From an uncultured Desulfobacterales bacterium (GTDB lineage Bacteria > Desulfobacterota > Desulfobacteria > Desulfobacterales > JAHEIW01): DNA of 64,000 nt. Made by a program: the position numbers and the translations under genes. The stretch is taken from the NCBI GenBank assembly GCA_947259495.1, contig CAMYLV010000004.1, positions 62,001 through 126,000 on the forward strand, in the 5' to 3' direction. Numbering within the stretch: position 1 is the first letter of the stretch; each line of letters begins with the position of its first letter. Below the pieces are notes generated by a model. The model saw only the letters and a program-made list of their open reading frames with translations, did no database searches and was not told the origin of the DNA. Shown piece after piece: positions 19,943 to 41,166 of this stretch.

Positions 19943-20557
19943 TTAACGGGTGAGCTTTTTGATTCTTTCCAGATCTTCCGGCGTATCGACATCTATAAAG
20001 AAGTAAGGGTTTTTAATGTCGATTTCAAGTACACGTTCCGGGTTCGACCGAATAATATGGCGGGCGCCACTGTCACCTGTGATATGCATGATTTGCGGAA
20101 AAATATTTTTTCTGAAAATACAAGGGTTTCCTTTTTGACCCTCAAACGTGGGAACACAAATGTCTTTATCCGCGGACCAACAGTGTTCCAACAGGAAATT
20201 AAGGGTGGCGGTGTCAACCAGAGGTTGGTCGGCGAGCAAAAACATCACGGCCGGAAAGGCATCGATGACCCTTGACAGGCCAAGCTGAAGGGAACAGCTC
20301 TGTCCTTTTTTAAATTCCGGGTTGATTTCGACAGACAATTTTGAATCCTGCAATTTTGAATCGAGGGCCTGCAGAACTTGTTGATGGGCATATCCTAAGA
20401 CCAGAATAATCCGCTTGAGTTTGGATTTTAGGGCTGCATCCAATACCCACTCGATCAGGCATCTGTCGTTTAGCCGCACGAGCTGTTTCGGCCGGCCAAA
20501 TCGTGTCGACGCACCGGCCGCCAGAATAATGCCGGCTGTTGAATTTTCTGCATTCAT
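19943..20557 (-). CDS. mocA: MocA-like molybdenum cofactor cytidylyltransferase
   Basis: A 204-residue nucleotidyltransferase with the signature 'IILAAGASTRFGRPKQLVRL' (about 10-29), 'VLGYAHQQVLQAL', 'GQSCSLQLGL', 'LLADQPLVD' (metal-binding Asp) and the C-terminal 'NPYFFIDVDTPEDLERI'. MocA attaches CMP to molybdopterin-Mo to make the MCD cofactor used by Mo hydroxylases. The start at 20557 (MNAENS) is chosen because the motif begins nine residues later; a longer version would be translated from repeat sequence. It is convergent with dctM and likely serves the Mo hydroxylase at 12.7-16.7 kb. MobA is an alternative, but the LAAGxSxRxGxxKxL pattern is MocA-like. Confidence 0.8.
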   Translation of the reverse strand: MNAENSTAGIILAAGASTRFGRPKQLVRLNDRCLIEWVLDAALKSKLKRIILVLGYAHQQVLQALDSKLQDSKLSVEINPEFKKGQSCSLQLGLSRVIDAFPAVMFLLADQPLVDTATLNFLLEHCWSADKDICVPTFEGQKGNPCIFRKNIFPQIMHITGDSGARHIIRSNPERVLEIDIKNPYFFIDVDTPEDLERIKKLTR

Positions 20558-20563
20558 GCTGTG

Positions 20564-20639
20564 ACCTGAATGTTGCGCGAACCGGAGGCTTTCAGGTATT
20601 AAAATACCTGAATTTTGCACAAGTCGGAGGTTTTCAGGT
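20564..20639. repeat. Tandem ACCTGAA...TTCAGGT palindromes
   Basis: Two 34-base inverted repeats, 20564-20597 and 20606-20639, each begin ACCTGAA and end TTCAGGT and are separated by eight bases. The spacer region itself forms AGGTATT AA AATACCT. They fill the gap between the mocA start and the dsrE-like stop. Longer relatives with ACCTGAATTTTGCA ends are at 26428-26502 and 46091-46161. Confidence 0.7.
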
Positions 20640-20640
20640 A

Positions 20641-20973
20641 TTAAAATACCATGGGCACATATCCCGCTTTGATTGAATCGGAAATTAAGGCCCCCACGAA
20701 CTCGACATTAAAGCCCAGTTCTTCAAGCTTGTTACTGGCGCCGGATTTGTCCGCTAAAAATTTGCAGGCAATCGGCGTTTTGTAATCCAGCAATTCCGAT
20801 GCGGCCTGGATGACGTCGTCATCTTCACAGACCAGATTTTCAAAAGGGCCGAAAAAGATCACCCGGACATCATCGACCCAATTATTCTTTTGAGCGTTTT
20901 TGGCATACAGAATGCCGGTCAGTGCTTTGTCCTTTTCAGCCGTTGAAATAATAACCATAACCTTAGATGACAT
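20641..20973 (-). CDS. DsrE-family small protein
   Basis: A 110-residue protein. The ATG at 20973 has AAAGGAGG at optimal distance; a longer frame to 21039 lacks one. The sequence 'KVMVIISTAEKDKALTGILYAKNAQKNNWVDDVRVIFFGPFENLVCEDDDVIQAASELL' and the ending 'LGFNVEFVGALISDSIKAGYVPMVF' match DsrE/DsrF-like alpha/beta folds, with one Cys near residue 49 and one near 67. DsrE-like proteins carry sulfur or act in unknown redox roles. It is transcribed toward mocA, so a role in sulfuration of the Mo cofactor is possible but only suggested by location. Confidence 0.7.
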   Translation of the reverse strand: MSSKVMVIISTAEKDKALTGILYAKNAQKNNWVDDVRVIFFGPFENLVCEDDDVIQAASELLDYKTPIACKFLADKSGASNKLEELGFNVEFVGALISDSIKAGYVPMVF

Positions 20974-21097
20974 GACAACCTCCTTTGAAAACAAAAGATT
21001 GAGAAATCCTAACACCGGCCAACGCCATTTTCTGTACAACTTTTTGATGCTTGTTTATATTGTCTGATATACTTTTCTGACTTTTATTGGAACGGAT

Positions 21098-21799
21098 ATG
21101 CGAAGTGACCATAATAAATATATAGATGCAACGCCGATCATTGATGCTGATTCAAAGATAATTATTGATTATGCGATGTCAGCCATCGCAGGTGCCGATC
21201 AAAATCCGATCGCCAAGGCCATTAAACTCTACTATGCCGTCAGAGATGCGATCTGGTACGATCCTTATATTCCGTTTTATCGCCCGGAACATTATCGGTC
21301 CAGCCATGTCCTGAAAACCGGACGGGCCTTTTGTATTGGTAAAGCCGGCCTGTTGTGTGCCCTGGGTCGGGCTTGCGGCATCCCGGCACGCGTGGGATTC
21401 GCCGATGTTCGCAATCACCTGGCCACCCGGCAATTGCTCGATTATCTGGGGTCCGACATTTTTGCTTTTCACGGATATACCGAATTTTATCTGAAGGGCA
21501 AATGGGTTAAAGCGACCCCGGCTTTCAACAAAGAGCTCTGTCGCAAAGCCAATGTGACCCCGCTGGAATTCAATGGCAGAGATGATTCCATATTCCAGCC
21601 GTACAATAAAGAAAAAAAATTATTTATGGAGTACGTAAACGACCACGGAAGCTTTGCCGACATTCCGCTCGATCGAATTCTCGCTTCCTGGAAAGCCCTC
21701 TATGGTCGGGAACGCGTCCGGCAATGGATCGATTTACTTGAGAAGTCCGGTGGTAAGCGCAATCGAAAATTTGAAAATGAAGATTGGGTCAGGGATTAA
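21098..21799 (+). CDS. Transglutaminase-like cysteine-peptidase-fold protein
   Basis: A 233-residue cytoplasmic protein with a transglutaminase core: 'KAIKLYYAVRDAIWYDPY', the nucleophile 'GRAFCIGKAGLLCALGRACGIPARVGFADVRNHL' (Cys about 74) and the His strand 'AFHGYTEFYLKGKWVKATPAFN' (His about 126). The third catalytic acid, usually Asp in 'vDpT', is in a 'KATPAFN' context here, so the triad may be incomplete or use another residue. There is no signal peptide. It is followed by the yqeB-yqeC pair with an 83-base gap. Activity could be peptidase, deamidase or non-catalytic binding. Confidence 0.75.
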   Translation: MRSDHNKYIDATPIIDADSKIIIDYAMSAIAGADQNPIAKAIKLYYAVRDAIWYDPYIPFYRPEHYRSSHVLKTGRAFCIGKAGLLCALGRACGIPARVGFADVRNHLATRQLLDYLGSDIFAFHGYTEFYLKGKWVKATPAFNKELCRKANVTPLEFNGRDDSIFQPYNKEKKLFMEYVNDHGSFADIPLDRILASWKALYGRERVRQWIDLLEKSGGKRNRKFENEDWVRD

Positions 21800-21882
21800 G
21801 GCGTGCCAGGCCGCATTGAAAAGGACTGAGCGGCAGCACTAAATTTTTTATAATTTATGAATTTTCTATGGAGGATTGAAAA

Positions 21883-22683
21883 ATTAATTTAGGTAAACTC
21901 GTTATTGCAATCAAAGGGGCAGGGGAGATTGCCAGTGCGGTTGCCTGGCGGATATATATGTCCAATATTCGTCAGATTCTGATGCTGGAGACAGCTTCTC
22001 CGCAGGCCGTCAGGCGTGCGGTTTCATTTTGTGAGGCCGTATATGACGGGCACCAGACCGTGGAAGGTGTGGTGGCGAATTGGGCGGAAAACGATGATGC
22101 GGTGCGATCGGGTTGGGAGAAAGGTAAAATTGCCGTAAGCGTTGATCCTGAGTGGAAGATGCTGGATGGTTTTCAACCCGATGTGGTCATAGATGCCATA
22201 CTGGCCAAAAATAATCAGGGTACCCGGATGGATGAGGCACCGCTGGTCATCGGGCTGGGCCCCGGTTATGTTGCCGGCCAGGATGTTCATATGGTCGTTG
22301 AGACCCATCGCGGTCATAATCTGAGCAGAATAATAACGGTCGGTGGTGCCGAACCGAATACGGGAATACCGGGCCCCATCGGCGGCTATACTGAAGAAAG
22401 GATTCTGCGGGCCCCTTGCGACGGAAAATTTAAAGCCGCGCGTTCGATCGGTGATCGGGTAAAAAAAGGGGAGAGGATCGGAACGGTCGCAACGGATGTC
22501 ATCCAGGCACAAATCGATGGTGTGCTGCGTGGGCTGATTCGATCCTCATCGCGCGTGTGCCGGGGATTAAAAATTGGTGATATTGATCCCAGGGGGGATG
22601 TGAATTACTGTCATACAATTTCAGATAAAGCGCGGGCCATTTCCGGGTCGGTGCTCGAAGCAATTCTGCGTGTATTCAATTAA
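21883..22683 (+). CDS. yqeB: YqeB/EF2563-like selenium-dependent Mo hydroxylase system protein
   Basis: A 266-residue protein of the EF2563/YqeB family, found with selenium-dependent molybdenum hydroxylases. The N-terminal nucleotide-binding region 'VIAIKGAGEIASAVAWRIY' is encoded upstream of the first ATG (21958), so that ATG cannot be the true start. Reading back, the only initiation site with a ribosome binding site is an ATT at 21883, eight bases after GGAGG (21870-21874); the frame is closed by TGA at 21877. Other marks are 'ETASPQAVRRAVSFCEAVYDG', 'GLGPGYVAGQDVHMVVETHRGHNLSRII', 'APCDGKFKAARSIGDRVKKGERIG' (a biotinyl-lipoyl-like C-terminal fold). It pairs with the YqeC-like gene downstream. 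Confidence 0.85.
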   Translation: MNLGKLVIAIKGAGEIASAVAWRIYMSNIRQILMLETASPQAVRRAVSFCEAVYDGHQTVEGVVANWAENDDAVRSGWEKGKIAVSVDPEWKMLDGFQPDVVIDAILAKNNQGTRMDEAPLVIGLGPGYVAGQDVHMVVETHRGHNLSRIITVGGAEPNTGIPGPIGGYTEERILRAPCDGKFKAARSIGDRVKKGERIGTVATDVIQAQIDGVLRGLIRSSSRVCRGLKIGDIDPRGDVNYCHTISDKARAISGSVLEAILRVFN

Positions 22684-22850
22684 CGGGCGCATTTCGATGT
22701 GATTGCCTGTTATGACTAATTGACCACAGCGTCCGCAGGGCACTCGGAGAAAAACAAAAATCTTTTGGTCATCATTGACTTCCTGTTTTGACTCTCTGTG
22801 CACGCTGTGTTCTCTCTGATCGACAGACAAAAACATTGCGGAACGCAACA

Positions 22851-23630
22851 ATGACCTCATTACGGCATTCTTTGCAACTGCAAAAAGGCGGCGTCATCAG
22901 CATCGTGGGAGCCGGTGGTAAGACCGCCTTGATGTTTCGTCTGGCGCAGGAGCTGGCCGCTCGGGGCGACCGCGTGCTGACGACGACCACAACGAAAATT
23001 CGCCTGCCCATGCGCCGGCAGTCACCGATTGTCATGGTTTCCGATTCCGCAGAACGCCTTCTAAGGCAGGCCGGCGTCATTTTAAAACACTCCCCGCATA
23101 TGACGGCCGGCCGGCGGATCCTGCATCTTCATCATAAACTAAAAGGATTTCACCCCCGCACAATTGATCGTATCTGGCAATCCGGCGTCTTTCGCTGGAT
23201 TATCGTCGAAGCGGACGGGGCAGCCGGCAAACCGCTCAAGGCGCCGGCTGAGCATGAACCGGTGATTCCCGACAGCACGCGCTGGATGATCGGAATTGTG
23301 GGGTTGACGGTTGTCGGTAAACCGTTGAACGCGAAATGGGCTTTTCGACCACAGCTGGTTTCAGCCCTGACGGGTTTGGCTCCGAATGCCGCCATAAGCG
23401 TGTCTGCCATTGCCAAAATGTGCCTGGACAAAAACGGGTTGATGAAAAACGCGCCCGAGCGGGCCATGCGGTTTATATTTCTCAATCAGGCAGAATCTCA
23501 AAGGTGCCTGGCAGCCGGTAAGCAGATTGCCCGGATGTTGATATCGCCTGCCAGGGCGGGGTTAAGCGGTGTGCTCATCGGACAGACTATTTATGAACCA
23601 ACGGTTGAGGAATATCACATAATAATCTGA
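22851..23630 (+). CDS. yqeC: YqeC-like selenium cofactor/Mo hydroxylase maturation protein
   Basis: A 259-residue P-loop protein with 'ISIVGAGGKTALMFRLAQELAARGDRVLTTTTTKI' at residues about 16-50 (GAGGKT nucleotide loop), 'WIIVEADGAAGKPLKAPAEHEPVIP' (Walker B-like) and a Ras-like C-terminal part. These are hallmarks of the YqeC family, thought to act in selenium incorporation into Mo hydroxylases. The ATG at 22851 (MTSLRH) is preferred to a TTG/ATG further upstream, though no strong ribosome site is present. It follows yqeB by 167 bases, which hold no clear gene. Confidence 0.85.
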   Translation: MTSLRHSLQLQKGGVISIVGAGGKTALMFRLAQELAARGDRVLTTTTTKIRLPMRRQSPIVMVSDSAERLLRQAGVILKHSPHMTAGRRILHLHHKLKGFHPRTIDRIWQSGVFRWIIVEADGAAGKPLKAPAEHEPVIPDSTRWMIGIVGLTVVGKPLNAKWAFRPQLVSALTGLAPNAAISVSAIAKMCLDKNGLMKNAPERAMRFIFLNQAESQRCLAAGKQIARMLISPARAGLSGVLIGQTIYEPTVEEYHIII

Positions 23631-26553: not shown

Positions 26554-28794
26554 ATGGATAGCTACCATTATCTTAAAGATGAAATCTTAAAGCTCAATCA
26601 AGACATTCTGGCGCTGATTTTAAAAGCTAAATCTTTGCCCGGGATGGCGGAATCGCGCTTTGAAGGTTGGGCCAAAACCTGTCAGGGACTTCCGCGACAG
26701 ATGTCAGAAGATATCATGCGTGTGGCCGTTGCCGGACCGATTAAATCCGGGAAAAGCACTTTTCTAAACTCAATCCTGCAAGGCGATTATCTAAAAAGAG
26801 GCGCCGGCGTGGTCACATCTATCGTCACCCGGGTGCGAAACGGTGATCGACTGAGTGCCCAGCTTTTTTTCAAGTCCTGGGATGAAGTGAATGCCGAAAT
26901 GGAACAGGCGCTGGTTCTTTTTCCGACACTGGAATGGCACCGGACTGATTCCGGGTTGGACATCAGAAACGCTGAAGAACGCCATCAAATTCAAAAAGCC
27001 CTGAAATTATTGAGCGCCGATCAACTGATCTCACACGATACCCGCAACATAAATAATGTCCTTCTATCCTCATACACCAAAGGGTATGACAGGGTTTATG
27101 ATATTATCTCCGCCAGGGATACGACCCGACAGTACGAAGGAAAGACATTTCCGGAACACAAAGATTTTGTGGGTGATGAAAATCTGGCTGTTTATCTAAG
27201 AGACATTCAGCTGGAAATTCCGTCAGAAGCACTTGCAGCCAATATTGAAATTGCGGATTGTCAGGGCAGTGACAGTTCAAATCCGATGCACCTGGCAATG
27301 ATACAGGATTATTTGCTGCTCACGCACATGATTGTGTATGTGATCAGCAGTCGCACAGGCTTGCGCCAGGCGGACATCCAGTTTTTATCCATCATTAAGA
27401 AAATGGGTATTCTGGATAACATTATATTTGTCATAAATTGTGATTTTAGCGAACACGAATCCATACAAGAACTTCAAACCCTGGTTAACAAGGTAAAGGA
27501 AGAGCTGGCTCTGATCAAACCCGAACCGGAAGTATATACTTTTTCAGCCTTGTTCAACTTGTTTTCCTCACCGGATTTAGCGCTTTCGGAAAAAGATCAA
27601 CTCCGAATGCAGCAATGGCGGGCGGAGGCCGAATTAACGGAATTTTCAAACAGGGAAACGATGCAGTTCAAGACGGCCCTTGATTCGAAGCTCGGCAACA
27701 CACGAGGCGCTGTATTGTTAAAAAATCATCTTGAACGACTCAGTGTTATTTTATCCGGAATGGAGAATTGGATCGGAATCAATCAGGATATCCTCGCGCG
27801 GGATTCGGAAAGTGCCCAGGAATTGATGAATCGGCTAAAGGAACATCAGGCACGGGTGATTCAGATGAAAACGGTTTTGAAAACCACTGTTTCCGGAGCG
27901 GTTTCCAGGATCAAAAAGAAGCTCAATGTCGAAGTGAACCGCTTTTTCGATGTCCGTTCCGGTGAAATCTTTCGCAAGATCACGCAGTTTATAAAGGAAT
28001 ATAAAGAATTGACCCAACCCGTCGAAGGAAAAGCGGACTTGTCCGCTGTCTCCAAAACCATATACCGGGGTTATCAGGATTTTAAACAATCTCTGAATAA
28101 ATTTATGGCTGAAGATATCAACCCGGAGATCATTCGTTTTGTCAAAACGCAGGAAAATGAAATCGGCAACTATTTTGAAACAATTCTTCAGCCCTATCAT
28201 GGAACCCTTTCAGATGCCTACGATGAATATATGCGCATGATGAAAAAACTCGGTGTGAGCTTGAGGAACGAAACACAGCTGCAAAATGAGTTGCCGAACC
28301 TCAAAGCTCAGATAGAACAGTCCGGGCCGACACCGCCAAAACTGGTTGCCGCGATGCAGTATTCAGTAAAAATTAAAACCGCCGCGCTATTACGCCTGGG
28401 GGTTTACAGCCTCCAGCAGAATTTAAAAAAGTTGTTAAAACGACCCGCTCGCAATCGGGCAGATGTGATCCAGCAGGCCCTGAGCGGCGGCACCCAGCAG
28501 ATGAAAAGAGACACATTGAGATTGATCGTCGAGCAACTAAAGGATTACCGTGAAAACCTTAAGTTTGCTTTTTTGTTTAAACTCGTCGAAAATTTTGCTG
28601 ATAATTTAGTCGACCTGATGCAGGATCGCTTTCAACTGTTTGTTACCGACCTTGGCGCCGTCGCCGGCCGGTTGGACAGTACCAAGATTGACAAGCAGCG
28701 CACGCTGGAAATGTTAAAGGAAATGGATCAGTGGTCTGCGGGCTTAAAAGGCAGTATCGGCCATTTGCGCCGACGCATTGAACAGGTCAACTGA
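26554..28794 (+). CDS. Dynamin-like large GTPase
   Basis: A 746-residue dynamin-family protein. G1 is '[19 protein letters not shown]' (about 57-75), G2 lies in '[10 protein letters not shown]', G3 is '[12 protein letters not shown]' (DxxG) and the G4 region is '[14 protein letters not shown]'. After the GTPase domain (to about 310) the rest is long alpha-helical stalk sequence with basic patches and no transmembrane pair. Bacterial dynamins bind and remodel membranes or help membrane repair under stress. The start has only a weak ribosome site. It is a single gene here, whereas many bacterial dynamins are paired. It is flanked by repeat-rich DNA upstream and a convergent YcaO gene downstream. 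Confidence 0.85.
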
Positions 28795-28892: not shown

Positions 28893-30638
28893 TCAGCTGT
28901 CCTGTGATTTAAGTTTGGCCAAATTTTCTCTGGCAAATTCAATGGATGCATCCAGTGTCAGCGCCATCTCATAATATCGAATTGCTTTGGCGGTTTGTCC
29001 CATATCACGATAGTTTGAGGCGATATTGGCATAATCAATGGCTGACGATGGATCCAGCTGGATGATTTTTTTGAAATTTTCAATGGCTGCTGCATGCTCT
29101 TTTAGCTTGAAGTGGCAAAATCCCATTAAATTGTAAATGTCGGTTCTCTCCGGATCCAGCTCCATACCTTTTTTAAGTTCATCGAGCGCCCTGCGGTATT
29201 CCCCCATGTCTTTTAAGGCCACGCCTAAATACGAGTAAATGCTGGGAACATCCTGCTGATTGGGCTCCAGGTTTAAAGCCTCCTCAAAGCATTTTTGGGC
29301 CGCCCCGGGGTCAGCCAGCGCCAGGTGGCAGGACCCAAGATAAAATTTGACGTAATATTTTCCGGGCAGGTCTTTATCGATTTGATTCAATTCGGTGATG
29401 GCCACGCGGGGACTCTGGTTATCGGCGATATGTTTGGTCGAAAACATACCGACACTGGTGGCCAAGGCCCGTTCTCTGAAATGCGCCCCCGGAATGATGG
29501 TGTAAAATGCGGGGATTTCCAGATCCGAATGCATCGTGTCAACGAGGAATACTTCCATTCCAGTTCGGTTCAGTGCCTCCAGGCAGTTTTCCACTTCGAC
29601 TTTGATGTTATCATTCGATAAATCCGGCAGGTCACCGATATCAATTTCTTTCCCCGGGTTCATGACGTAAGCGGCCTCTGCCAGATCGGTAAATTTGGGC
29701 AGTCCACTGGCCACATAATTGGCAGCTGTATCAAAATCACCCGCCAGCTGCGCCACTTCAGTGAGCGCCCGACTGAACGCTTTCTGGGGATCCGGTGTTG
29801 TTCCGGCGGTCCAGACGATTTCACTGAGTTCCGGAAATGTGGCCGGGTCGTAGGCTAAAATGCCGACACTCGGGATGCCGGTATCGAGCGTAAAATCGGA
29901 CACAAAAAGCTTTACGCCTGCCTTGCGGTACTTGCCGATCATTTCAACGACCAGCGCATCGGTAGCCGAATCCGTGCGGATTGCCGGAACCTTCAAACGG
30001 TTGCGACTGATAACCGACGAGGTGTGTCTTTCGATAATTTCGCAAATTCCCTGACTAATCGCTTCTTCAACGCAATTGCCGGCAGAGGGGCCATTGAATT
30101 CATTGATGGCAAAAAACCAATCAAAAGGGACCAGTGTTTCCTCGTTGCGGCTTAAATTATAGGCCCAAGTCCACTTAAGAGGTAAATTTTCAAAGATTTT
30201 TCGCGTCACCTGCAGATCATCCGATTCATCTTGAACCGATTTCGCGATCATTTCGAAGGGTATGGCCCGATCTTGAATATTGCAAAATTTTTCGACAAAA
30301 AAGTTTTTGGAATTTTTCACAAAACTAAAAAAACTGAACCGTTCGGCTAATTCCATGACTGCACTGGCTTCGGATTGGCTGGGTGTTCCGCCTTTGCCCA
30401 TCTGTTTTTTCGTCCCGATGATCTCGTGGGCATCTTTGCCGCAAAGGCTAAAGTAAATCGGTATGTCCAATCGACCGTTGTCGATACGGATGGTTCGTTT
30501 GAGGATATCCAGGTTAACTTTTTTGAGTTTGGCTTTAAATTGCCGGACCGTATCTTCCGGGGCCATTATTTTATCCTGGTCAAAGGTAAAGCCTTTGTAA
30601 GCATCCTTTAGCTCAACTGTAAACTTCTTTTTTTTCAT
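28893..30638 (-). CDS. YcaO-domain protein with C-terminal TPR repeats
   Basis: A 581-residue fusion. Residues about 60-400 form a YcaO ATP-dependent cyclodehydratase/amide-activating domain: 'QMGKGGTPSQSEASAVMELAERFSFF' (ATP/Mg helix), 'NGPSAGNCVEEAISQGICEIIERHTSS' (second acidic helix) and 'DPQKAFSRALTEVAQLAGDF'. Residues about 425-575 are three to four TPR units ('YLGVALKDMGEYRRALDELKKGMELDPERTDIYNLMGFCHFKLKEHAAAIENFKKIIQLDP'). YcaO enzymes make azolines or thioamides in peptides or proteins; the TPR part likely recruits the target. No TfuA, E1-like or obvious precursor gene adjoins. The ATG at 30638 is used; a TTG 15 bases upstream is the alternative. Confidence 0.85.
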   Translation of the reverse strand: MKKKKFTVELKDAYKGFTFDQDKIMAPEDTVRQFKAKLKKVNLDILKRTIRIDNGRLDIPIYFSLCGKDAHEIIGTKKQMGKGGTPSQSEASAVMELAERFSFFSFVKNSKNFFVEKFCNIQDRAIPFEMIAKSVQDESDDLQVTRKIFENLPLKWTWAYNLSRNEETLVPFDWFFAINEFNGPSAGNCVEEAISQGICEIIERHTSSVISRNRLKVPAIRTDSATDALVVEMIGKYRKAGVKLFVSDFTLDTGIPSVGILAYDPATFPELSEIVWTAGTTPDPQKAFSRALTEVAQLAGDFDTAANYVASGLPKFTDLAEAAYVMNPGKEIDIGDLPDLSNDNIKVEVENCLEALNRTGMEVFLVDTMHSDLEIPAFYTIIPGAHFRERALATSVGMFSTKHIADNQSPRVAITELNQIDKDLPGKYYVKFYLGSCHLALADPGAAQKCFEEALNLEPNQQDVPSIYSYLGVALKDMGEYRRALDELKKGMELDPERTDIYNLMGFCHFKLKEHAAAIENFKKIIQLDPSSAIDYANIASNYRDMGQTAKAIRYYEMALTLDASIEFARENLAKLKSQDS

Positions 30639-30666
30639 TTTATTTACGATCAATTAAGGTTTTAGA

Positions 30667-30695
30667 TTGACCGTTTTGAATCAATTTGATATGAA
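30667..30695 (+). promoter_or_regulatory. Sigma70 promoter of tRNA-Ala
   Basis: TTGACC (30667-30672) and TATGAA (30690-30695) are spaced by 17 bases and end 13 bases before the tRNA gene. Good position and spacing for its promoter. Confidence 0.6.
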
Positions 30696-30708
30696 AACGG
30701 TCTGTTGT

Positions 30709-30784
30709 GGGGATGTAGCTCAGATGGGAGAGCGCGGCGTTCGCAATGCCGAGGTCAGGGGTTCGATCCCCCTCATCTCCACCA
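30709..30784 (+). tRNA. tRNA-Ala (anticodon CGC)
   Basis: A complete cloverleaf: acceptor GGGGATG/CATCTCC, D arm GCTCAGATGGGAGAGC, anticodon stem CGGCG/TGCCG with loop TTCGCAA (anticodon CGC, reading GCG), T arm CAGGGGTTCGATCCCCCT-like, discriminator A, and an encoded CCA at 30782-30784. Confidence 0.95.
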
Positions 30785-31113
30785 TACGAAAAAACTGCCA
30801 CAAAGTGACAAGTAAGAAGGCAACCTTGTAGCCGATTTTTTCGGGCGTGTCAACCGGGGTGTGCCGGCTTCAAGATTCTATAATAAATTTAGATTTTTGG
30901 TTGTTTTAGCGTTTGTTGCGGTCTATGTATAAAAGGCCGTAAAAAGCCAAGTCGCATTGTTTTTTTTTATAGACCCCCTGAGCATCAGAACTCCCTATCG
31001 AGAGCATATAACGTAAATACCTTGTATCAGTACCACAGATTTTTTGGTAATCCTTGCCGTATCCTGGCTTTTCACCTGACGCCTAAGCTATTATTTATGG
31101 GGGGAGAATTTAA
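30785..31113. other. 329-base intergenic region, no gene seen
   Basis: AT-rich sequence between tRNA-Ala and the PAS regulator. I see no RNA gene, strong terminator or repeat of the named families. A nine-base T-run near 30960 is not preceded by a clear hairpin. The last 20 bases carry the GGGGGGAG ribosome site of the next gene. Confidence 0.5.
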
Positions 31114-38787: not shown

Positions 38788-41166
38788 ATGGTAAGAAAAT
38801 CTGCTACAAAAAAGGAAACCGCAAAAAAGACCGTCAAACGGACAACCACCAAAAAGGTTGATCCCAAAACCAGCCGCAGCAAGCGCGCCGCAAAAAAAAC
38901 GACTGAAAAGAAGAGCGCTATAAAGACTGTCAAAGTTAAAAAAACGGCAACTCGGATCAAAGCAGCGGTATCCAAAGCCGCGCCACGCCAATCCAAAGCC
39001 GCGGCACGTAAGGCCAAATCAGCAGCAACCAAAGGTAAACCCGCAGCACGCAAAACCAAGGTCACGGCGCCCAGGGCCAAAGCTGCGTCAACCAGAGCCA
39101 AACCAACTGCAGGTAAAGCCAGAGCAACGGCACGCAAGACCAAAGCCCCGGCACCTAAAACCAGAGCAACGGCACGCAAGGCCAAAGCCCCGGCACCCAA
39201 AGCCAGAGCAACGGTACGCAAGGCCAAAGCCCCGGCACCCAAAGCCAGAGCAACGGCACGCAAGACCAAAGCCCCGGCACCCAAAGCCAGAGCAACGGCA
39301 CGCAAGACCAAAGCCCCGGCACCTAAAGCCAGAGCAACGGCACGCAAGACCAAAACAGCAGCTGGCAAAGCCAAAGCAGCTCCACGTAGAGCCAAAACCG
39401 CGGCACCTAAGTCCAAAGCAGCGGCAACCAAAGCAAAAGCTGCGACAAAGAAGGCCATCAAACAATTACTGGCGAAAGGCAAAAAACAGGGCTTTTTAAG
39501 TTACGACGAAATCAATGAATTACTGCCGGCGGAATTGCTATCTCCCGAACAAATTGATGAAACCCTTATAATGTTCGATGAAAACGAGATCGAGGTGGTT
39601 GATGAGAAGACGAAAAAGAAGCTAATCACCCAGAAAAAGAAAAAAGCAAAAAAACCGATCAGCCAAACAATTCGCGACACGGATTTTGGAACGGTTACCG
39701 ATCCGGTCAAGATGTATCTTCGCGAAATGGGACTGGTGACACTTCTGAGCCGAGAAGGAGAAGTCGAGATTGCGAAAAAGATAGAAGCCGGTGAGCAAGA
39801 AGTATTGCATGCCCTTCTTGAAACGAGAACCGGAGTGGAAAGCATCATCAGTCTTGGAGAAGACATTGCGGAAGGGAATATGCGGCCTAAACATGTGCTC
39901 AGAGACGTTGATGAAGGTGATACCTATGTTGATGAAATGGCGCAAACGGAAAAATTTTTAACAACGATCAGTGGTATTCGAAAGCTTAATGAAGAAAACA
40001 AAACAGGTCGGGAAAAATTATTTTCCAGTAAACTAAATCAAGAAGAAAAGAAAAAACTGAAGCAAAGCACCGGACAGCGAATCGATAAAATATTTGATCT
40101 TTTAAAAGATTGGCGCCTTGAGGCTAACGTTATCGATGAGATAGAGGAACACATACGCGCTCAAATTATGTGGTTTGATGAAATGAACAAATTGCTTAGC
40201 AGGGGAGCGGGCATTGTCGATACGTCTGTCTCCGAGCTCATAGGGCATTTAAACACAAAGACGAAGTTCGTAAAATGGGCCGCCCCGCGATGTAACTTGC
40301 CCAAGGAACATCTGGGCACTTTGCACAAAGAACTAAAGAAAATAACAGAAAGCATCGCGGTTCGGGAAAATGAATTAAAATCGCAGAACCGAACACTAAA
40401 GCGCGTGATGTCGGCTGTTGAAGAAGGTCGTTTTAGAGCAAAATTGGCCAAAAGTGAACTGACCAAGGCCAATTTGAGACTGGTTGTCAGCATCGCCAAA
40501 AAATATACCAACCGTGGCTTGCAGTTTTTGGATCTCATTCAGGAAGGAAACATCGGCCTAATGAAAGCCGTGGACAAGTTTGAGTACCGCCGGGGTTATA
40601 AATTTAGTACCTATGCCACCTGGTGGATCCGGCAAGCCATTACACGTGCTATTGCAGATCAGGCAAGAACGATACGGATTCCGGTCCATATGATCGAAAC
40701 GATCAACAAACTCATTCGAACATCTCGCTATCTGGTACAGGAGCAGGGACGGGAACCCACGCCGGAGGAAATTGCCGAAAAAATGGAGATTCCGCTTGAA
40801 AAAGTGCGCAAGGTGTTAAAGATTGCCCGCGAGCCAATTTCCCTCGAAACCCCGATCGGCGAAGAAGAAGACAGCCATCTGGGCGATTTTATAGAAGATA
40901 AAAAATTCATGCTGCCATCGGATGCAGCGGTGAACTTGAACCTGGCAGAACAAACCCGGAAAGTACTTGCCACCCTGACACCGCGTGAGGAAAAGGTTTT
41001 GCGCATGCGTTTCGGAATCGGGGAAAGGGCTGACCATACACTCGAAGAGGTCGGTCAAGATTTTGCGGTGACCCGTGAAAGAATACGACAAATAGAAGCC
41101 AAAGCATTGAGAAAATTGCGCCATCCGACCCGCAGCCGGAAGTTGAAAAATTTTATCGAAGGCTGA
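38788..41166 (+). CDS. rpoD: Primary sigma factor RpoD with a long Lys/Ala/Pro-rich repeat extension
   Basis: A 792-residue sigma70. Residues 1-223 are a highly basic Lys/Ala/Pro/Arg/Thr segment with six tandem 14-residue units of the type [14 protein letters not shown] at about 112-195 (DNA 39121-39372, 42-base units). Residues 224-295 are region 1.1 ('[25 protein letters not shown]'), then 1.2 ('[29 protein letters not shown]'), regions 2 ('[57 protein letters not shown]'), 3 and 4 ('[18 protein letters not shown]'-like). The ATG follows GGAGGG. The core is a normal housekeeping sigma factor; the extension resembles histone H1-like tails and is unusual. A terminator follows at 41173. Confidence 0.95.
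39121..39372 (+). repeat. Six 42-bp tandem repeats inside rpoD
   Basis: Each unit encodes [14 protein letters not shown] or a one- to two-residue variant; the last unit is more diverged (KTKTAAGKA). Nucleotide units such as AGAGCAACGGCACGCAAG are nearly identical, so the array can expand or contract by slippage in frame. Confidence 0.9.

Follow-up and report, generated by a model that had tools for sequence, protein, structure and literature searches.

A YcaO-TPR protein of sulfate-reducing Desulfobacterota as a candidate thioamidase of the sulfur carrier DsrC

The YcaO-TPR gene and its surroundings in the window

We analysed a stretch of 64,000 nucleotides from an uncultured Desulfobacterales bacterium, here called the window. 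It contains a gene for a YcaO domain followed by TPR repeats (Table 1), an architecture that an earlier sequence-only reading had recognised and that was confirmed by Pfam and by an AlphaFold2 model. The gene is the single ORF in its coordinates, i.e., it starts with ATG at 30638 and its stop codon ends at 28893. An alternative upstream TTG start would yield 586 aa, and the plus strand of the same interval is packed with stops.

Table 1 Positions of the YcaO-TPR gene, its domains and adjacent features in the window
Feature	Position	Strand	Remarks
YcaO-TPR gene	28893..30638	minus	581 aa, stop codon within coordinates
YcaO ATP-dependent domain, PF02624	29484..30401	minus	residues 80-385
TPR superhelix	28896..29366	minus	residues 425-581; Pfam and AlphaFold2 model
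ATP-binding motif SAGNCVEEAISQGICEIIER	30027..30086	minus	residues 185-204, intact
Dynamin-like GTPase gene	26554-28794	opposite to YcaO-TPR	
tRNA-Ala (CGC)	30709-30784		between YcaO-TPR and the PAS/GAF/LuxR gene

The protein matched PF02624 with E 3e-70 and 237.5 bits (cut-off 25.7) and hence belongs to the YcaO superfamily. Several Pfam TPR families scored above their own cut-offs at residues about 430-565, with about five repeats. The AlphaFold2 model, built from an alignment of 25 orthologues, had high confidence along most of the chain (pLDDT 91.6, pTM 0.87). In structure comparison, residues 14-397 matched solved YcaO chains and residues 425-581 formed a canonical TPR superhelix (designed CTPR 9gzg, Z 21.2). 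The fold ranking of the YcaO part gave MJ1094 (Z 38.2 over 343 residues), Methanopyrus kandleri YcaO (34.0) and LynD (34.0).

We followed the definition of the ATP-binding motif in PMC7774982, after Dunbar 2014. The full pattern Sx6-7Ex3Qx3ExxER was found in 104 of 129 relatives, and among the non-matching relatives listed the usual deviation was A or C in place of the first S. E192, Q196, E200, E203 and R204 were at least 97% conserved in the 129 relatives. Loss of ATP-binding residues in orthologues, which the sequence-only reading had named as an outcome that would refute its proposal, was hence not what we found.

Both immediate neighbours in the window, the dynamin-like gene and a PAS/GAF/LuxR gene, lie on the opposite strand. 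A dynamin-like GTPase gene adjoins YcaO-TPR in many Desulfobacterales loci. A scan of the window genes found no E1-like, TfuA or precursor gene beside YcaO-TPR, in agreement with the lack of partner genes noted from the sequence. Moreover, TfuA (PF07812) had no match in the whole window genome, with a positive control in Methanosarcina acetivorans; the protein therefore does not fall among TfuA-dependent thioamidases. Small ORFs on both sides of the gene were listed as candidate RiPP precursors and none was convincing; those at 30640-30831 are translations of or around the tRNA-Ala. YcaO occurs once in the window genome. Its DsrC gene lies on a separate contig from YcaO-TPR, as does its single LarE gene, which by eye has mnmA and metX/metY-type neighbours.

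Two further regions of the window may be recorded. Positions 19943-23630 hold maturation genes for selenium/molybdenum hydroxylases (YqeB, YqeC and a MocA-like cytidylyltransferase, the last below its NCBIfam cut-off) near a transglutaminase-like gene. Positions 38788-39450 hold an rpoD-like gene in which, by eye, a long Lys/Ala/Pro-rich repeat tail precedes the sigma-70 part.

Known relatives and the type of reaction

It is established that YcaO enzymes activate an amide with ATP before sulfur attacks. PMC13063428 describes ATP activation of the backbone amide and attack of sulfur on the activated carbon. In that paper, E. coli YcaO thioamidates Met82 of folded uL16 with ATP and sulfide and without a partner; its 150-residue TPR domain mediates dimerisation and might help uL16 binding. 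The window protein shares the C-terminal TPR domain with this enzyme, which likewise stands alone (PMC13063428) and acts on a folded protein. YcaO-TPR might hence be imagined as the Desulfobacterota counterpart that thioamidates ribosomal uL16, a reading that we regard as quite improbable. The model NF040716, which describes the E. coli type, gave 49.9 bits against a cut-off of 700, and the E. coli enzyme belongs to another sequence group and is more acidic (pI about 4.4 versus 5.2 for the window protein; median of 129 relatives 5.3). E. coli YcaO aligned with our model over residues 15-405 only (Z 30.6), so that the TPR parts seem to be placed differently. YcaO-TPR is also almost restricted to dsr genomes, whereas uL16 is, to our knowledge, universal.

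The closest published relative is most likely DVU2210 of Desulfovibrio vulgaris Hildenborough, described in PMC7774982 as a YcaO-TPR protein. Like the window protein it combines YcaO with C-terminal TPR repeats in a sulfate reducer with dsr genes, and it carries the motif SAGN..EE..I.QG.CE..ER, which we also found in the window protein as SAGNxxEExxxQGxCExxER. On these grounds the window protein counts as a YcaO-TPR of the DVU2210 type, and DVU2210, compared by its printed motif, is most likely its orthologue. Since DVU2210 and E. coli YcaO are both in print, the partnerless combination of YcaO and TPR has been described before, contrary to what the sequence-only reading had supposed.

According to PMC7774982, a DVU2210 deletion strain grows normally on sulfate, and in a sat deletion background either a point mutation in the DVU2210 ATP motif or its deletion confers molybdate resistance. 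Mutations in sat and DVU2210 arose in the same evolved cocultures, apparently in different cells, and each single mutant reached higher density in fermentation (PMC7774982). DVU2210 is also among the high G-score mutated genes in PMC8319347. In print, DVU2210 is linked only to molybdate sensitivity, unlike the role proposed here. The explanation printed in PMC7774982, i.e., a futile cycle in which the enzyme adenylates or phosphorylates molybdate, agrees with the resistance phenotype. As a conserved role it appears highly improbable to us: DVU2210 did not render E. coli sensitive to molybdate in rich medium (PMC7774982), and an indirect effect via the DsrC pathway would fit equally well.

The methanogen enzymes that form the thioglycine of McrA, i.e., MJ1094 and the M. 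kandleri YcaO, have the fold nearest to the YcaO domain of the window protein. They place a thioamide on glycine and, unlike the window protein, have no TPR domain. TfuA is not always needed by methanogen YcaO. The best NCBIfam match was TIGR03266 (McrA-glycine thioamidation), whose score of 142.4 bits stays below the cut-off of 365, and McrA is not known from these bacteria. From these nearest folds and the nearest, albeit below-cut-off, NCBIfam model, thioamidation is likely the reaction rather than azoline formation. Formation of azolines or of a cyclic peptide natural product would agree with the YcaO domain as such and with the close fold of LynD. We nevertheless give it very little credence, because no precursor-like small ORF stood out, no E1-like neighbour was seen among the window genes scanned, the SagD model for azoline TOMM cyclodehydratases (TIGR03604) gave 112 bits versus a cut-off of 219, and YcaO-TPR is conserved in full length across the phylum. 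For the cyclisation that the sequence-only reading had also offered we found nothing, as far as tested.

Distribution and gene neighbourhoods across the phylum

We searched 247 genomes of the phylum, all with a completeness of 90% or more, for the YcaO domain, dsrA, LarE and dsrC; in the following, G, L and f numbers label genomes, loci and families of this analysis. Matches were taken as the full-length YcaO-TPR type if they scored 277 bits or more in an open frame of 570 aa or longer. Some YcaO match occurred in 99 genomes, 92 with the full-length TPR type, two with a shorter paralogue and five with weak matches only. In G092 and G175, the two genomes with this paralogue (about 485 aa), the other matches are weaker and the full-length type is absent. 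DsrA was over the cut-off in 91 of the 92 YcaO-TPR genomes (in G256, the exception, contig ends split the gene) and dsrC was present in 91 (exception G131). Conversely, YcaO-TPR was absent from 33 of 124 dsrA genomes, G092 and G175 among them. The association with dsrA had a Fisher p of 6e-38, uncorrected for descent. A YcaO match was found in 52 of 58 close relatives; in the window's order, seven genomes lack a strong match (six have none and G025 a weak one), five of which have dsrA over the cut-off. These counts show YcaO-TPR almost confined to dsr genomes, where it can yet be lost.

Shorter YcaO paralogues of about 485-520 aa occur in several sulfate reducers (the second YcaO of L148, L094, L095, G092, G125, G150, G160 and G175). 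Such a paralogue adjoins a DsrC or DsrC-like gene in G144 and G160.

The sequence-only reading had described the enzyme as lacking partner genes. This holds for the window and fails for the family, where YcaO-TPR repeatedly has genes for DsrC, LarE, NIL-ferredoxin, HcyBio, Thi4, MnmA and a lysine methyltransferase as neighbours. In 19 of the 92 genomes the coordinates place DsrC next to YcaO-TPR and in the same orientation, in two arrangements. It lies upstream in six genomes, all of family f68 (G069, G106, G135, G158, G202, G222), and downstream in 13 genomes of nine other families (G083, G094, G119, G145, G168, G191, G211, G231, G237, G250, G288, G295 and, with one gene in between, G287). 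Genomic linkage to dsrC is hence seen for the family; in the window genome the two genes are not adjacent. In 13 of 117 loci scanned by tblastn, which include the window and some places taken twice, DsrC lies no more than 2.6 kb from YcaO-TPR and in each case on its strand. L148, the fourteenth such row, concerns a shorter YcaO paralogue.

LarE lies directly upstream on the same strand, sometimes overlapping, in 14 rows that represent 12 distinct places, one of them partial; by coordinates it is adjacent in five of the 92 genomes (G090, G147, G171, G214, G293). As an obligatory partner LarE was rejected, because it is present in 215 of 247 genomes whatever their YcaO state and missing from at least nine YcaO-TPR genomes, several of them single-contig. 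NIL-ferredoxin adjoins YcaO-TPR in six loci, twice upstream and four times downstream. In L144 and L151 the order is HcyBio, NIL-ferredoxin, YcaO-TPR, Thi4, possibly a sulfide-incorporation operon, HcyBio standing for sulfur incorporation into homocysteine. MnmA is located downstream in L157 and L164, and L137 and L148 have it in divergent orientation. In a YcaO tree with 74 rows, adjacency changed four times for DsrC, four times for LarE and twice for NIL-ferredoxin. These linkages are therefore recurrent, and that with DsrC is not one inherited accident; since the neighbours are all sulfur-transfer or sulfide-incorporation genes, they point to thioamidation.

The window's own order showed no conserved same-strand neighbours of YcaO-TPR. 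On the opposite strand the gene is often flanked by housekeeping genes, with most names assigned by eye, namely hisA/hisB/dnaG/rpoD on one side and dynamin, parA and yqgE on the other, which look like a conserved chromosomal place and not like partners.

Thioamidation of a protein substrate, as suggested from the sequence, is thus likely, given DsrC and the sulfur-transfer genes as neighbours and the thioamidase-like fold. Which protein is modified can be read in more than one way. The main rival to DsrC as the substrate is that a DsrC persulfide donates sulfur to YcaO-TPR, which then thioamidates another protein. TusE, a homologue of DsrC, hands sulfur to MnmA. The neighbours of YcaO-TPR include different sulfur carriers (LarE, NIL-ferredoxin, MnmA, DsrC), a variation that donors might show, and for E. 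coli YcaO the physiological sulfur route is suspected to consist of co-opted proteins of primary metabolism (PMC13063428). We rate a donor role of DsrC as unlikely, for reasons that follow from the DsrC data below. Another protein of sulfate or sulfite reduction, e.g., an Apr, Dsr or Qmo subunit, could also be the target, with dsrC nearby as a pathway member only. The tight association with dsrA and dsrC and the behaviour of the sat and DVU2210 mutants in PMC7774982 are in line with this. DsrC is, however, the sole sulfite-reduction gene among those that were sought by position, i.e., DsrC, LarE, NIL-ferredoxin, MnmA, HcyBio, Thi4 and methyltransferase, and we consider a target of this kind improbable.

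The DsrC arm and a proposed role for YcaO-TPR

In an alignment of 53 DsrC sequences, the C-terminal arm reads GPGKGACKM in 33 of 33 sequences from YcaO-TPR genomes and GPAKG.CK[L/V/I] in 17 of 20 from dsrA genomes without YcaO-TPR (exceptions G025, G087, G241). A scan of the 247 genomes for GP[G/A]KG, which admits only Gly or Ala at residue 3 and so would miss other residues, found Gly in all 91 YcaO-TPR genomes having the motif. Among genomes without YcaO-TPR, 28 of 36 with the motif had Ala and eight had Gly, three of these eight with dsrA; two dsrA genomes without YcaO-TPR lacked the arm motif. The difference recurs within family f90, where the YcaO-TPR genomes G125 and G150 have Gly and the paralogue-only genomes G092 and G175 have Ala. 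Independent pairs on a DsrA tree of 40 genomes, in whose DsrA translations internal stops were replaced by X, gave three concordant, no discordant and three pairs without difference (p 0.25). Because the pattern partly follows phylogeny, we rejected the Gly/Ala difference as proof of a modification site. All seven genomes of the window's order without a strong YcaO match keep Gly; as five of them have dsrA over the cut-off, neither the gene nor a change at this site is tied to sulfate reduction there. The arm in 1JI8, which we take to be Pyrobaculum DsrC, reads GPAHGACKV.

Two genomes of the same order without dsrA over the cut-off (G017, G020) keep the DsrC motif GPGKGAC. G014 and G059 each have three copies of the arm motif.

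Published proteomics of D. vulgaris bears on the same region of DsrC. Table 1 of a 2011 interactome study (PMC3125180) lists the DsrC peptide LK*EVYELFPSGPGK with 'Trimethylation+Oxidation' in the pull-downs of three baits. Native DsrC is thus reported with '+oxidation', given without explanation, plus trimethyl-lysine on the Met-free peptide LKEVYELFPSGPGK (PMC3125180). We located LK*EVYELFPSGPGK at residues 77-90 of the DsrC chain in 2V4J, with numbering counted back from Val105. It contains no Met, Cys or Trp, and its C-terminal end is at Gly89-Lys90. By our computation, oxidation and an O-to-S exchange on this peptide lie 11 ppm apart, and trimethylation and acetylation 23 ppm apart, a pair that the accuracy in PMC3125180 could not split. 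Tyr, Phe, Pro or Lys may have gained the +16 by hydroxylation or by oxidation during handling; as a sign of a DsrC thioamide, i.e., of an O-to-S exchange that YcaO-TPR would make, the +16 is suggestive only. Sulfur donation by DsrC to another substrate would leave both this +16 and the Gly in 91 of 91 genomes unexplained.

The second modification on the peptide also has a candidate enzyme. Nine of ten f92 genomes (exception G094) have a gene for a predicted PF10294 lysine methyltransferase immediately upstream of YcaO-TPR, and G237 and G295 show the succession methyltransferase, YcaO-TPR, DsrC. The DsrC of the f92 genome G127 is almost the same as the D. vulgaris protein. For the two modifications on one peptide there would thus be two neighbouring enzymes, a specific if tentative explanation.

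We therefore propose, with modest confidence, that YcaO-TPR is a partner-independent, ATP-dependent DsrC thioamidase of sulfate- and sulfite-reducing bacteria, a reading in which DsrC, of the DsrC/TusE sulfur-carrier family, is the presumed substrate and not the donor. The enzyme would phosphorylate a backbone amide of DsrC, the sulfur carrier of dissimilatory sulfite reductase, and sulfide would then displace the oxygen. This sulfide might be free or be supplied by carriers of the LarE, NIL-ferredoxin or Tus type, with LarE or NIL-ferredoxin as a possible supply in some lineages. Sulfide is ample in sulfate reducers, which could explain the absence of TfuA. The thioamide would most likely fall on Gly89 of GPGKGAC in the C-terminal arm or on a residue beside it, a few residues before the redox-active Cys93, as the arm motif and the peptide suggest. 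The TPR domain would bind DsrC in its folded form, which would be the substrate recruitment imagined in the sequence-only reading, or else make the enzyme a dimer.

Cys93 and Cys104 lie in the C-terminal arm of DsrC, which also bears the trisulfide. With a thioamide at or near Gly89, this arm would become stiffer or change its position. Normal growth of the DVU2210 deletion strain on sulfate suggests that the modification would tune the trisulfide-forming arm and not serve an essential step, and the growth, fermentation and coculture data on DVU2210 might be what is expected for a tuning modification in the sulfate-reduction branch.

In its fullest form, which we put forward tentatively and hold to be somewhat short of probable, DsrC of most sulfate-reducing Desulfobacterota would be doubly modified, i.e., by a YcaO-TPR thioamide at or next to Gly89 and, in Desulfovibrio-like genomes, by trimethylation of Lys78 through the upstream methyltransferase. 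The thioamide would tune the trisulfide arm between DsrAB and DsrMKJOP, YcaO-TPR would be a third class of protein thioamidase after those for McrA and uL16, and the modification would have passed unrecognised in proteomics as 'oxidation'. As far as the open-access literature shows, the link of YcaO-TPR to sulfate reduction and DsrC is new. We found no open-access paper that treats DsrC together with YcaO or thioglycine, a weak negative with most subscription papers and all supplements outside the literature covered.

If the proposal holds, a modification would have been overlooked on a central protein of the sulfur cycle. DsrC stands at the centre of biological sulfide production, and a thioamide in its arm would alter how freely the arm moves and how it forms hydrogen bonds, and possibly the trisulfide redox chemistry as well. 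The proposal would also give a function to a conserved enzyme for which the only known effect of deletion is an altered sensitivity to molybdate. Three published loose ends, i.e., the '+oxidation' on a Met-free peptide, the molybdate phenotype of DVU2210 and the repeated mutation of DVU2210 in cells that do not use sulfate reduction, would find one testable explanation, and the role of uncharacterised stand-alone YcaO enzymes would become directly testable in a genetically tractable strain.
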